This document shows, one piece after another, positions 44,766 to 48,658 of a stretch of 64,000 bases of DNA. The position numbers and the translations under genes are program-made. The DNA lies in NCBI RefSeq assembly GCF_022834715.1, contig NZ_BQKC01000001.1:532501-596500 (forward strand), read 5' to 3'. The number at the start of each line of letters is the position of its first letter. Position 1 is the stretch's first letter. Below the pieces are notes generated by a model. The model made no database searches, was not told the DNA's origin, and worked only from the letters and a program-made list of their open reading frames with translations. The DNA is from Granulimonas faecalis. Lineage in GTDB: Bacteria; Actinomycetota; Coriobacteriia; Coriobacteriales; Atopobiaceae.

Positions 44766-45506
44766 TCAGGCGGTGATGACGCGCGTCTCGGCGGCGACCG
44801 CGGGGTCGCTGCGGTCGGAGACGACCGTGACGCGGTCCAGCGGGAGCACCCTGACGTTTAGGACCTCCCCGAACTTGGAGGAGTCGGCGAGCACGTAGGT
44901 CTCCTTGGCGTGCTCGGCCACCACCTGCTTCTTGTTGGACTCCTGCATGCTCGGCGTGGTGACCCCGAACCTGACGTCGACGCCGTTGGCCCCCAGGAAC
45001 GCCCGGTCGAACACGAAGCGCCCGACGTTCTCCTCGGTCATGGGGCCGTACACGGAGGAGAGGTCGGGGCTCAGGATGCCGCCCAGCATCACGAGGGTGG
45101 CGCAGGGGTCGGCACCTGCGAGGGAGAACGCGTCGGCGTTGGTGGTGACCACCGTGACCGGCCTCGCCATGAGGAGGGCGAGCAGGGCCGAGCAGGTGGA
45201 CCCGGAGTCCACGTAGACCGTCTCGCCGTCCTCCACGAGGGCGGCCGCCGCCGCCGCGATGGCGCGCTTCTCACCCACGTGGATGGCCGCCTTGACGCTG
45301 ATGGGTGTCTCGCGGGGGCCGCCGGCGGCCTTCACGGCGCCGCCGCTCAGGCGCTGGAGCCTGCCGTCCGCCTCGAGCTCGCGCACGTCGCGCCGGAGCG
45401 TCGACTCCGACACCTCGGGCAGGAGCTCCTGTATGTCGGAGAAGCGCACGACCTCCTCCTGGGAGAGGAGGTCGAGGATGGTCTGCTGACGCTTGTAGGG
45501 GATCAT
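44766..45506 (-). CDS. DeoR-family transcriptional regulator
   Basis: 246 residues. The N terminus IPYKRQQTILDLLSQEEVVR with VSESTLRRDVRELEADGRLQ is a DeoR helix-turn-helix; the C-terminal sensor domain has TVYVDSGSTCSALLALLMAR and VLADSSKFGEVLNVRVLPLD, the sugar-phosphate binding DeoRC region. It diverges from the isomerase-PTS genes at 45754 and very probably controls them through the decamer repeats in the 247-base gap. ATG at 45506. Confidence 0.92.
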   Translation of the reverse strand: MIPYKRQQTILDLLSQEEVVRFSDIQELLPEVSESTLRRDVRELEADGRLQRLSGGAVKAAGGPRETPISVKAAIHVGEKRAIAAAAAALVEDGETVYVDSGSTCSALLALLMARPVTVVTTNADAFSLAGADPCATLVMLGGILSPDLSSVYGPMTEENVGRFVFDRAFLGANGVDVRFGVTTPSMQESNKKQVVAEHAKETYVLADSSKFGEVLNVRVLPLDRVTVVSDRSDPAVAAETRVITA

Positions 45507-45547: not shown

Positions 45548-45587
45548 CGACTGTCTATGACTGTACATGACCGTCCATGAAAGAAAT
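45548..45587. promoter_or_regulatory. Direct decamer repeats, array 1 (putative DeoR-type operator)
   Basis: Four consecutive 10-bp units: CGACTGTCTA, TGACTGTACA, TGACCGTCCA and TGAAAGAAAT. DeoR-family proteins often bind tandem direct repeats. The array lies next to the regulator start, so autoregulation is likely. Confidence 0.6.
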
Positions 45588-45628
45588 CTACCGCTCGCGG
45601 GAGATTACCTACCGTTCATCCCATGGAA

Positions 45629-45688
45629 TGACCCTAAGTGACAGGAAATGATAGTTTCCAACTCTGAGTGACAGTTTGTGACGGTATA
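45629..45688. promoter_or_regulatory. Direct decamer repeats, array 2
   Basis: Six 10-bp registers: TGACCCTAAG, TGACAGGAAA, TGATAGTTTC, CAACTCTGAG, TGACAGTTTG, TGACGGTATA. Five begin TGAY. Ten-base period puts each unit on nearly the same face of the helix. Confidence 0.6.
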
Positions 45689-45699
45689 GTCCTTCTCAA

Positions 45700-45739
45700 C
45701 GACTGCAAATGAACGTGGTTGACAGGAATTGACGGAAGA
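45700..45739. promoter_or_regulatory. Direct decamer repeats, array 3
   Basis: Four units: CGACTGCAAA, TGAACGTGGT, TGACAGGAAT, TGACGGAAGA, ending 14 bases before the isomerase start and overlapping its ribosome-binding region. Bound protein here could block transcription or the transcript start. Confidence 0.6.
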
Positions 45740-45753
45740 GAAGGAGACGCCCC

Positions 45754-46683
45754 ATGAAACTGGCCACCCGCATCAACTCGTTCCTCTCGGAGGCGGACGG
45801 CGACCTCGCCTCCGTGCTCCAGGAGTTCTCGGGGCTCGGCCTCACCCACTGCGACTTCAACTATCCCGAGCACGTGGAGGGCCTGCTCGCGGCCGACCTC
45901 AAGGCCATGCTCGACGCCAACGGGCTCGAGGCCAACGGCGTCGCCGTGCGCTTCCGCAGGCACTTCCTCAACGGCGAGTTCGGCAACGCCGACCCCGCGG
46001 TCGCCGCCGACGCCCTCGCCCTCGCCAAGGAGGGCACCGACTACTGCCGTGCCATCGGCGGCAGGGTGGTCACCCTCTGGCTGGGCTTCGACGGCTTCGA
46101 CTACCCCTTCCAGGCCGACTACCGCCGCATGTGGGACGCCGTCGCCTCGGCCTTCCGCGAGCTCTGCGACTACGCCCCCGACGTGCTCTTCTCCATCGAG
46201 TACAAGCCCTTCGAGGAGCGCTCCTTCGCCTTCATCGACAGCTTCGGGCTCGTGCTCGCCATGATCGACGAGATCGACCGCCCCAACATCGGCGCCACCC
46301 TCGACTACTGCCACATGCTCATGAAGCATGACAACCCCGCGTACGGCGCCGACATCCTCGGCTCCAGGGGGCGCCTCTTCGGCGTCCACCTCAACGACGG
46401 CTACGGGCGCTTCGACGACGGCCTCATGGTGGGCACCGTCACCCTGCCCCAGACCCTCGAGTTCCTCTACTACGTGAAGAAGCACGGCTTCGACCACGCC
46501 GTCTACTTCGACACCTTCCCCAAGCGCGAGCGCGCGGCCGCCGAGTGCGCGGCCAACGTCGCCATGGTGCGCCGCATCGACGAGACCATCGACCGCCTGG
46601 GCCTCGACCGCATCCAGGCCGCCGTGGACGCCAACGACGGCGTGGGCGTGAGCCGCCTCGTGCTCGACGCCTTCATGAAGTGA
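45754..46683 (+). CDS. Sugar phosphate isomerase/epimerase (xylose isomerase-like TIM barrel)
   Basis: 309 residues. Metal-site strands of the AP-endonuclease-2/xylose-isomerase fold are visible: FSIEYKPFEERSFAF (Glu), GATLDYCHMLMKHDN (Asp and His), LFGVHLNDGYG (His) and HAVYFDTFPK (Asp). Substrate not predictable; the PTS next door suggests a sugar phosphate or sugar acid. ATG at 45754 follows AGAGAAGGAGACGCCCC. Expression is probably controlled by the decamer arrays. Confidence 0.85.
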   Translation: MKLATRINSFLSEADGDLASVLQEFSGLGLTHCDFNYPEHVEGLLAADLKAMLDANGLEANGVAVRFRRHFLNGEFGNADPAVAADALALAKEGTDYCRAIGGRVVTLWLGFDGFDYPFQADYRRMWDAVASAFRELCDYAPDVLFSIEYKPFEERSFAFIDSFGLVLAMIDEIDRPNIGATLDYCHMLMKHDNPAYGADILGSRGRLFGVHLNDGYGRFDDGLMVGTVTLPQTLEFLYYVKKHGFDHAVYFDTFPKRERAAAECAANVAMVRRIDETIDRLGLDRIQAAVDANDGVGVSRLVLDAFMK

Positions 46684-46713: not shown

Positions 46714-48080
46714 ATGGACTACAAAGTGACGGCCGAGAGGATCCTCGAGTACGTCGGCGGCCCCGAGAACGTCGCGAACGTCTCCCACTGCGCCACGCGC
46801 CTGCGCCTCATCCTCAAGGACGAGTCCTTGGCCGACGACGACGCCATCCGCGCCCTCGACGGCATCCCCAACGTGGCCCACGGGTCGGGCCAGTACCAGA
46901 TCCTCGTGGGCATCAACGTGCCCAAGCTCTACGAGCGGTTCCAGCCGCTGGTGACGGGCGGCGCCGCCGAGACGGCCGCGGCCGTCGACGAGGGCGGCAG
47001 CCCCGTCACCAATGTGTTCAGCGCCATCTCGGCGATCTTCTCGCCGCTTCTGGCCCCCCTGGCCGGCTCCGGCGTGCTCCGCGGCCTCCTGATCCTGTGC
47101 ACCCAGCTGGGGTGGATCGCGGAGGGCTCGAGCACCTACACGATCCTCTACTCCGCGTCGATGGCCGTGTTCTACTTCCTCCCTGTGCTCCTCGCCGTGA
47201 GCGCGGCCAAGCGCTTCGGCGCCAACCCCTACATCTCGGCCCTCATCGGCGCGGCCCTCATCTACCCGGACTTCCTGGGCCTCATGGGCGACGTGGGCAA
47301 CGGCGCCATGGGCGACTTCTTCGGCATCCCCGTCGTGCTCATGAACTACAGCTCCACCGTCATCCCCATCATCCTGGCCATCTGGGTCTACAGCCACCTC
47401 TTCAAGCTTCTCGACTCCAAGGTGCCGGAGGACCTGCAGCTCGTCGTCACGCCCCTCGTGTCGCTCGTCGTGATGGTCCCCCTGACCATGATCGTGATCG
47501 GCCCCATCGGCGTGTACGGCGGCGAGGTCATCGCCGCGGGCGTCAACTGGCTCCTCGGTGTGTCCGGCATGGTCGCCGGCGCCGTGGTGGGCGGCGGCTG
47601 GTCGGTGCTCGTCTCCGTGGGCATGCACTGGGCCGTGAACCCCATCATGATCAACAACATCGCGCAGAATGGCATGGACTACATCTGCCCCATGACCTTC
47701 GCCTGCAACTTCGCCGTCATCGGCGTCGCCCTCGGCGTCTTCCTCAAGGCCAAGGACCGCGACGTGAAGAGTTTTCCCTCACCGGCGTGATCACCATCGT
47801 GCTCTCCGCCATCATCGAGCCCACGCTCTTCGGCCTGCTTGTGAAGAACAAGCGCCTCTTCCTGGCCCAGATAGTCGCGGGCGCCGTGGGCGGCGCGGTC
47901 CTCGGCCTCCTGCAGGTGCACACCACCGCCTTCGTGTTCGGCTCCGTGGTGACCTTCCCCGCCTTCATCTCGGCCGACATGATGAACTTCGTGAACGCCA
48001 TGATCGGCCTCGGCATCTCCACCGTGCTCGGGGCGGTGCTCGGGTACGCCTTCTGCAAGAAGGACGAGAAGCTGGTGTAG
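46714..48080 (+). pseudogene. PTS EIIBC, glucose/beta-glucoside superfamily, with a frameshift
   Basis: The first frame (46714-47790) holds the IIB domain with phospho-cysteine C26 in NVSHCATRLR and most of IIC up to FLKAKDRDVK, then runs into SFPSPA and a TGA. The continuation, EFSLTGVITIVLSAIIEPTL to FCKKDEKLV, is in the -1 frame and ends at 48080. One missing G in AAGAG near 47767-47771 (expected AAGGAG) would explain it. The C-terminal part includes the IIC membrane end, so the first ORF alone is likely inactive. Sequencing error, true mutation or recoding are possible; no good slippery heptamer is present. IIBC members import sugars such as sucrose, trehalose or MurNAc. Confidence 0.8.
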
Positions 48081-48139: not shown

Positions 48140-48658
48140 ATGGGTCTCTTTGACAGGTTCAAGAAAGGGCCGGCGAGGCCCGACGCGGTGCCGTGCCACT
48201 GGGAGCCCCTGACTGTGCTCTCGCCGGTCGACGGTGAGGCGGTCGCTCTCGCGGACGTCCCCGACGACGCGTTCTCCCAGGGGCTCCTGGGGCAGGGGCT
48301 CGCCGTGAGGCCGAGCGGGCGGACGGTCTTCTCGCCCGTGGACGGCACTGTGGCCGCCCTGGTGGGCTCCGGCCACGCCGTCGGGCTCGAGACGGCAGAC
48401 GGCACGGAGGTCCTCGTGCATGTGGGCGTGGACACCGTGGCCATGGAGGGGGAGGGCTTCACGGCCTACGTCTCCCAGGGCGATGCCGTGAGGGCGGGGC
48501 AGCCGCTGCTGGGGTTCGACCCCGACGCCATCGCGGCGGCCGGCCATCCCGACGAGGTGATGGTGCTCGTCTCCAACTCCGCCGAGTACGGCGCCGTCAC
48601 GCCGGTGGCCCCGGGCCCTGTCAGGGCAGGGGAGCGGGTCGTCGCCCTCGTCCGGTAG
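48140..48658 (+). CDS. PTS subunit IIA, glucose family
   Basis: 172 residues. TVLSPVDGEAVALADVPDDA opens the domain; the two active-site histidines are H79 (GSGHAVGLE) and H94 (EVLVHVGVDTV, the phospho-acceptor). It would phosphorylate the IIB domain of the upstream gene and might act as a general IIA-Glc. ATG at 48140 follows AGAGAGGAGAGGCC. Confidence 0.92.
   Translation: MGLFDRFKKGPARPDAVPCHWEPLTVLSPVDGEAVALADVPDDAFSQGLLGQGLAVRPSGRTVFSPVDGTVAALVGSGHAVGLETADGTEVLVHVGVDTVAMEGEGFTAYVSQGDAVRAGQPLLGFDPDAIAAAGHPDEVMVLVSNSAEYGAVTPVAPGPVRAGERVVALVR

Follow-up and report, generated by a model that had tools for sequence, protein, structure and literature searches.

The window (the whole 64-kb stretch of DNA analysed here) contains three arrays of ten-base direct repeats, A, B and C, which make up 14 registers at 45548–45739 with the consensus YGACNG. 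They occupy the gap between the start codon of a DeoR-family regulator gene at 45506 on the minus strand and that of a xylose-isomerase-like gene at 45754 on the plus strand (Table 1). The initial annotation had described arrays of four, six and four decamer registers, and we recovered all three. It had also given the repeated word as TGACNG; this stands as a consensus but not as an exact word, since TGACNG occurs in 7 of the 14 registers and YGACNG in 9. Position 1 was T in 11 registers and C in 3, position 2 was G in 13, position 3 was A in all 14, position 4 was C in 11 and position 6 was G in 12; preferences at position 5 and at positions 7–10 were weak.

Table 1. Positions of the arrays, genes and candidate signals at the locus, in window coordinates
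Feature	Position	Strand	Details
DeoR-family regulator, 246 aa	44766..45506	-	HTH_DeoR residues 6–58, DeoRC sensor domain 76–231 (Pfam)
Recognition-helix codons, residues 34–46	45369..45407	-	DSSP of model and alignment; begins E34-S35-T36-L37-R38-R39-D40
Array A, four decamers	45548..45587	+	CGACTGTCTA, TGACTGTACA, TGACCGTCCA, TGAAAGAAAT; starts 45548, 45558, 45568, 45578
Array B, six decamers	45629..45688	+	TGACCCTAAG, TGACAGGAAA, TGATAGTTTC, CAACTCTGAG, TGACAGTTTG, TGACGGTATA; starts 45629, 45639, 45649, 45659, 45669, 45679
Candidate -10 hexamer	45685..45690	+	TATAGT; by-eye alignment with the -10 of L056 and L064
Array C, four decamers	45700..45739	+	CGACTGCAAA, TGAACGTGGT, TGACAGGAAT, TGACGGAAGA; starts 45700, 45710, 45720, 45730
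Probable ribosome-binding site	45740..45746	+	GAAGGAG; read from the sequence
Xylose-isomerase-like TIM-barrel protein (AP_endonuc_2)	45754..46683	+	First gene of the presumed target operon
PTS IIBC gene, beta-glucoside type	46714..48080	+	Two reading frames, broken near 47790; first frame stops at 47790, homologous remainder in another frame, to 48080
PTS IIA protein (EIIA_1)	48140..48658	+	Pfam; start codon chosen by eye

The regulator scored above the curated cut-offs of both HTH_DeoR and DeoRC (PF08220, 38.6 bits against 21; PF00455, 143.4 bits against 31.8), which places it in the DeoR/GlpR family. We built an AlphaFold2 model from 36 sequences (mean pLDDT 90) and took helix limits from DSSP of this model. 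The recognition helix, residues 34–46, starts within S33-E34-S35-T36-L37-R38-R39-D40 and so carries the T-x-R-R-D core, which we take to be a mark of the DeoR/GlpR family and which was seen in most of the relatives aligned. None of the named NCBIfam equivalogs (AgaR, SrlR, GlpR, UlaR, DeoR and others) matched the regulator above its cut-off; the highest-scoring were haloarchaeal GlpR (140, cut-off 300) and AgaR (131, cut-off 260). We also considered FruR proper, the repressor of the fructose operon, and rejected it: this regulator lies next to the isomerase-like gene and to IIBC and IIA genes of beta-glucoside type, not to fruK or fruA. Both by sequence and by fold, the nearest solved structure was the sensor domain of E. 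coli DeoR (7l6l), and the matches listed in these searches included no DNA-bound close relative. As this sensor domain was the only solved close relative that these searches found, the way in which the family reads tandem decamers looks structurally open.

On the other side of the gap, the isomerase-like enzyme gene is kept beside the regulator in relatives. The candidate -10 hexamer lies at the end of array B with a poor -35 position before it, and no sigma-70-like promoter in the window passed our consensus scan. Among orthologues with a promoter score of at least 9, the -35 hexamer fell at decamer offset 3 in 12 of 22, as in TGGTTGATAA (Enterococcus) and TGCTTGCAAG (Coriobacteriaceae). In orthologues, an array placed like array B overlaps the enzyme gene's -35 region. 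Array C follows the candidate -10 and precedes the enzyme gene's ribosome-binding site, and second arrays resembling it, between the -10 and the start codon, were found at L056, L058, L064 and L121. Array A, 42–81 bp upstream of the start codon of the regulator gene, is probably its autoregulatory operator; registers adjoining the regulator on its upstream side are present too in the divergent orthologue loci L056, L058 and L064. The IIBC gene of the same operon is split between two frames, whereas in 16 of the 17 relatives examined it is one open frame of 458–506 codons. Either a genuine disruption of the gene or a sequencing error could explain the split.

The arrays are not a product of chance. 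Compared with 2000 dinucleotide shuffles, the lag-10 autocorrelation of 0.412 had a z of 4.9; lag 20 reached z 4.6, and the runner-up to these two among lags 3 to 40 was lag 4, at z 2.6. Pairs of TGA at lag 10 numbered 7, compared with a shuffle mean of 0.35 and a maximum of 4. When four-register arrays were scored over both strands of the 64-kb window, A and C came out on top with 19 of 20 each, and the best score outside the array region was 16. In the 2.23-Mb genome, the two-unit pattern YGACNG-N4-YGACNG occurred 36 times (a control pattern, 8 times). Because 4 of these 36 matches fall within the 192 bp studied here, the dense site appears to be local to this operon.

We found that the 10-bp step is exact within each array and that the register shifts by +1 between arrays, the distances being 51 bp from A to B and 21 bp from B to C. 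The uninterrupted 10-bp period first proposed therefore applies inside each array but not across the gaps. At 10.5 bp per turn, decamers drift by about 0.05 turn per register and by roughly 0.7 turn overall, so the single DNA face of the accompanying suggestion would be only approximate, and that suggestion is weakened by both the drift and the +1-bp resets.

We then examined conservation in enzyme loci fetched from named genomes. Of 80 such loci, 46 had an orthologue of the regulator in the flank; the pair occurs in Coriobacteriia, Enterococcus, Streptococcus, Lactobacillales, Listeria, Bacillales and others, in two gene orders. After adding the window, removing one region that was too short and collapsing those more than 70% alike, 39 upstream regions remained. 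Lag 10 had a mean z of 2.65 in these regions, with 27 of 39 above 2; lags 20 and 30 followed with mean z 1.89 and 1.46, and the remaining lags were near zero. At least three consecutive TG-decamers at a spacing of 10 were present in 36 of the 39 regions (the misses were L079, L081 and L095), compared with 2, 0, 0, 0, 5 and 2 regions at spacings of 7, 8, 9, 11, 12 and 13. The letters varied by lineage: TGACNG in the window, TGCAAA in the Coriobacteriaceae loci L056 and L058, TGRAAW in Bacillota and a mixture in Olsenella (L064), with TG at positions 1–2 common to all. Since the letters change and the spacing stays, the period is what is conserved, which answers the comparison of related gaps that the initial annotation had called for. 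It had named poor conservation of the decamers among orthologous regions as part of the outcome that would count against it, and at the level of sequence this was not what we observed.

Other intergenic stretches of the same loci had a mean z of 0.02 at lag 10, with 7 of 136 above 2, which supports the proposed tie between the arrays and this DeoR-family regulator. We used these 136 stretches for comparison because the 34 enzyme loci that lacked a regulator in the fetched flank carry arrays too (mean z 2.0, 17 of 34 above 2) and are thus no control. In all four genomes with such loci that we searched, a DeoR-family gene lay at most 4 kb beyond the end of the flank.

The register shift seen in the window recurs among relatives. 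We paired TG-decamer runs of at least three with runs of at least two in 68 non-redundant loci. Of the 68 pairs obtained, 14 showed no shift, 20 a shift of +1 and 3 a shift of -1; pairs within a locus are not independent, and the count includes the window and its Coriobacterial relatives, in which the +1 shift was first noticed. More +1 than -1 shifts would be expected from a helix with 10.5 bp per turn. We also observed that an acidic residue 34 in the regulator went with C at decamer position 4 (13 of 27 decamers versus 8 of 171), an association that is only suggestive because it comes from few loci and lineages. One orthologue (G031, locus L064) also has E34, and many of its decamers lack G at position 6, which counts against the explanation that we favour below. 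The arrays of this Olsenella orthologue (L064, and L016) are even longer than those of the window, at 9, 7 and 5 registers with degenerate ones counted, and this intergenic region also holds two decamers in the opposite orientation, CTGTCACTGGTTGTCACTTG.

To relate the repeat letters to the protein, we surveyed 230 DeoR-family genes, of which 118 came from the family and order of the window (38 + 80 regions, the 80 being those read of a longer list of places) and 112 were held out. L011–L014 (weak or partial HTH matches), L015 (a second copy of the window gene) and L038 (truncated) were excluded from this paralogue survey. In the 118 genes, lag 10 was on average the strongest lag, with a mean z of 1.42 in the 38 regions (16 above 2) and 1.06 in the 80 (24 above 2). 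The letters followed the start of the recognition helix, S-x-y-T. A TGACNG pair at lag 10 was found for 15 of 23 genes in which y is S, 0 of 29 in which y is M and 0 of 66 others, and a TGTTCR pair at lag 10 for 0 of 23, 9 of 29 and 0 of 66, respectively. At lags 8, 9, 11 and 12, TGACNG pairs occurred in at most 3 of the 23 genes with S. These patterns had been seen before they were counted, and the gene of the window and its G031 orthologue are inside the count.

We fixed a rule before turning to the held-out genes: S at the second variable helix position predicts TGA at lag 10, and M predicts TGTT. Other Actinomycetota contributed 45 genes to the held-out set and eight named Bacillota genomes contributed 67, after exclusion of L262, L247 and L271 (upstream region too short, or same family as the window). 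Lag 10 again led, with a mean z of 1.06 in the 45 (12 above 2) and 1.29 in the 67 (19 above 2). Since z exceeds 2 in only these fractions of the four sets, arrays of this kind near the own gene are not used by all members of the family. The M rule held: TGTT pairs were present for 8 of 22 x-M genes versus 8 of 90 others (p 0.003). The literal form of the S rule, that S gives TGACNG, failed outside Coriobacteriia (2 of 19 held-out S genes), and TGA words were not at the top of the four-letter count in the held-out S genes. With the pattern widened after the fact, TGANNG pairs were found in 5 of 11 held-out S-E-S-T genes versus 2 of 101 others, and three copies of TGRNYG in 6 of 11 versus 0 of 101; both patterns were shaped after the sequences had been seen, so they are not independent tests. 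An example among the held-out S-E-S-T genes is L321, with TGATTGAATA, TGAATGAATT, TGGTTGAAAA, TGAAAGAATA and TGATTGACTT. Overall, the repeat unit tracks the opening residues of the recognition helix, TGANNG accompanying S-E-S-T and TGTT accompanying S-x-M-T, and the held-out genes partly confirmed this. Our literature search, for which subscription papers were mostly beyond reach, found no recognition-helix rule for DeoR operators.

As a check on shared ancestry, we clustered the helix-turn-helix segments at 60% identity, for which 212 of the 230 genes were usable. The link between helix and letters persisted: TGANNG was found in 11 of 20 S-E-S-T clusters, 3 of 88 others and 0 of 25 x-M clusters, and TGTT in 14 of 25 x-M clusters, 6 of 88 others and 2 of 20 S-E-S-T clusters. 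When the 32 S-E-S-T genes were compared with their nearest relatives lacking S-E-S-T, TGANNG was present in 8 of the 32 comparisons, and the relative was L034 in all 8; because L034 shares a similar motif without E-S, ancestry and the residues themselves are not fully separated as the cause of the link between helix and letters. In L034, whose helix reads S-P-A-T, two copies of TGAGCGAATA follow each other at 10 bp; this word differs by a single letter from the S-E-S-T motif TGACCGAATN, and the gene provides a natural contrast for the recognition rule.

With the arrays, the conservation of their period, their tie to the lineage of the regulator and the association of letters with helix all computed here, the three arrays are, as far as sequence comparison can indicate, very probably the operator through which the divergent DeoR-family repressor acts, with every decamer a half-site and the control regions of both genes covered. 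Against this reading weigh the lack of a consensus promoter in the window and the poor -35 position of array B, the arrays at enzyme loci with no regulator in the fetched flank, the failure of the literal TGACNG rule outside Coriobacteriia and the limited share of DeoR-family regions with a lag-10 signal. What we propose about binding and repression, about the inducer, about how many subunits take part and about possible cooperation among the arrays is inference. The direct-repeat geometry suggests that every decamer would take up a single winged helix-turn-helix domain and that these domains would point the same way, spaced by about one helical turn. Array B would lie over the core promoter of the enzyme–PTS operon and array C over the DNA between the -10 region and the ribosome-binding site, while array A would occupy the DNA upstream of the regulator gene itself. 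Bound repressor would shut off both sugar uptake and its own synthesis. By analogy with DeoR-type repressors that respond to fructose 1-phosphate, it would leave once its C-terminal RpiA-like domain binds a sugar phosphate produced by the PTS.

How the repressor would be arranged on the decamers can be read in more than one way: as a continuous row, which would match the filament that the initial annotation had raised as a possibility, as separate tetramers, or as tetramers that bridge arrays. In the last case a small number of tetramers, each occupying two to four decamers, could connect A, B and C by looping, as opposed to forming a continuous head-to-tail row. This variant, which is compatible with the operator reading, is a serious candidate whose chances we put somewhat short of even. 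The existence of three separate arrays speaks for it, as do the cooperative binding of three operators by E. coli DeoR reported in PMC2222622 and the tetrameric state on DNA of Bacillus DeoR, a SorC-family protein, reported in PMC11229326; the Enterococcus arrays, with six or seven adjacent registers, would need no loop. At the other end stands a fully modular DeoR operator, in which any number of 10-bp units would be filled by a repressor polymerising head to tail, the +1-bp resets would offset the 10.5-bp helix and the two residues that open the recognition helix would write the letters of the unit (TGANNG for S-E-S-T, TGTT for S-x-M-T). Taken as a whole, this is a speculative and rather unlikely proposal; if it were true, the 14 units found here would place this locus among the longer natural arrays.

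It is highly unlikely that the arrays are sites of another regulator, such as a response regulator or an AraC-type protein, with the DeoR-family gene an incidental neighbour. Direct repeats are indeed read by other families (for AraC-type proteins, with a 21-bp period, according to PMC3870299), but arrays and regulator orthologues co-occur in Coriobacteriia, Enterococcus, Streptococcus, Lactobacillales and Bacillales in two gene orders, and the divergent loci show an array adjoining the start of the regulator gene. That the 10-bp period reflects DNA shape (intrinsic curvature from phased A-tracts, or a nucleoid-protein site) and not a repressor operator is scarcely credible even though the Bacillota decamers TGRAAWAAWA place A-tracts every 10 bp, given that the window conserves YGAC-G with weak positions 7–10, that TG at positions 1–2 is what all lineages share, that other intergenic stretches of the same loci lack the lag-10 signal and that the letters track the recognition helix of the adjacent regulator.

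An operator of tandem decamers read by the neighbouring DeoR-family repressor, the reading that we prefer, has precedents. The DeoR-type FruR of Lactococcus lactis has four adjacent 10-bp repeats overlapping the -35 box (Barriere et al. 2005, as cited in PMC10765703, which also presents the S. aureus FruR site as one without such 10-bp repeats). In PMC2222622, Lactococcus FruR is said to potentially bind four repeating non-palindromic sequences, other DeoR-type proteins are given palindromic sites and SugR a 21-bp AC-rich site. The DeoR-family RhaR proteins form four groups with direct repeats of 10–11 bp, and a 38-bp tandem of four sites was bound in vitro by purified RhaR (PMC3870299). Direct repeats at 10–11 bp near the regulated promoter, a feature of FruR- and RhaR-type sites, are present in the window. 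Since tandem 10-bp DeoR operators are in print for both proteins, the kind of site is known and the window locus is a long new member of it.

One of the closest known systems is the L. lactis FruR operator, as cited in PMC10765703 and PMC2222622, where a DeoR-family sugar repressor also has adjacent non-palindromic 10-bp repeats; the -35 overlap of the FruR repeats is seen here in orthologues. FruR has a single array of four at a fructose operon; the window has three, of 4, 6 and 4 registers, and their neighbours are an isomerase-like gene and PTS genes of beta-glucoside type. The RhaR sites of Chloroflexus and others are similar in having direct repeats at 10–11 bp with letters that differ between groups, but they serve another operon and have another sequence (TCGAAA) and a shorter array (PMC3870299). 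SugR of Corynebacterium glutamicum is also a DeoR-type repressor of PTS genes and is released by sugar phosphates; its non-palindromic, AC-rich 21-bp site is, unlike the one here, not described as decamer arrays in PMC2222622. E. coli DeoR has the same sensor-domain fold (7l6l was the best structural match) and more than one operator per promoter region, but its operators are palindromic, according to the same paper. The design is thus known for the DeoR family and unusually long here. What this analysis adds is the length and number of the arrays, the +1-bp resets between them and the recognition rule for the letters. A long natural array, letters that drift while the period stays fixed and a two-residue rule make the system testable, and the rule could help to predict the targets of many unnamed DeoR-family regulators in gut Coriobacteriia and in Bacillota.

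Two further sets of loci carry related decamers. At L110, L111, L124 and L102, which come from Lachnospiraceae, related Clostridia and Bacillales, the enzyme orthologues are preceded by similar decamers, TGAAAA, with DeoR-family genes at most 4 kb past the fetched flank. Within Coriobacteriia, the other S-E-S-T genes L032, L166, L174, L036 and L022 are preceded by nearly the same decamers (TGACCGAATC and similar), so that several paralogues might share sites.
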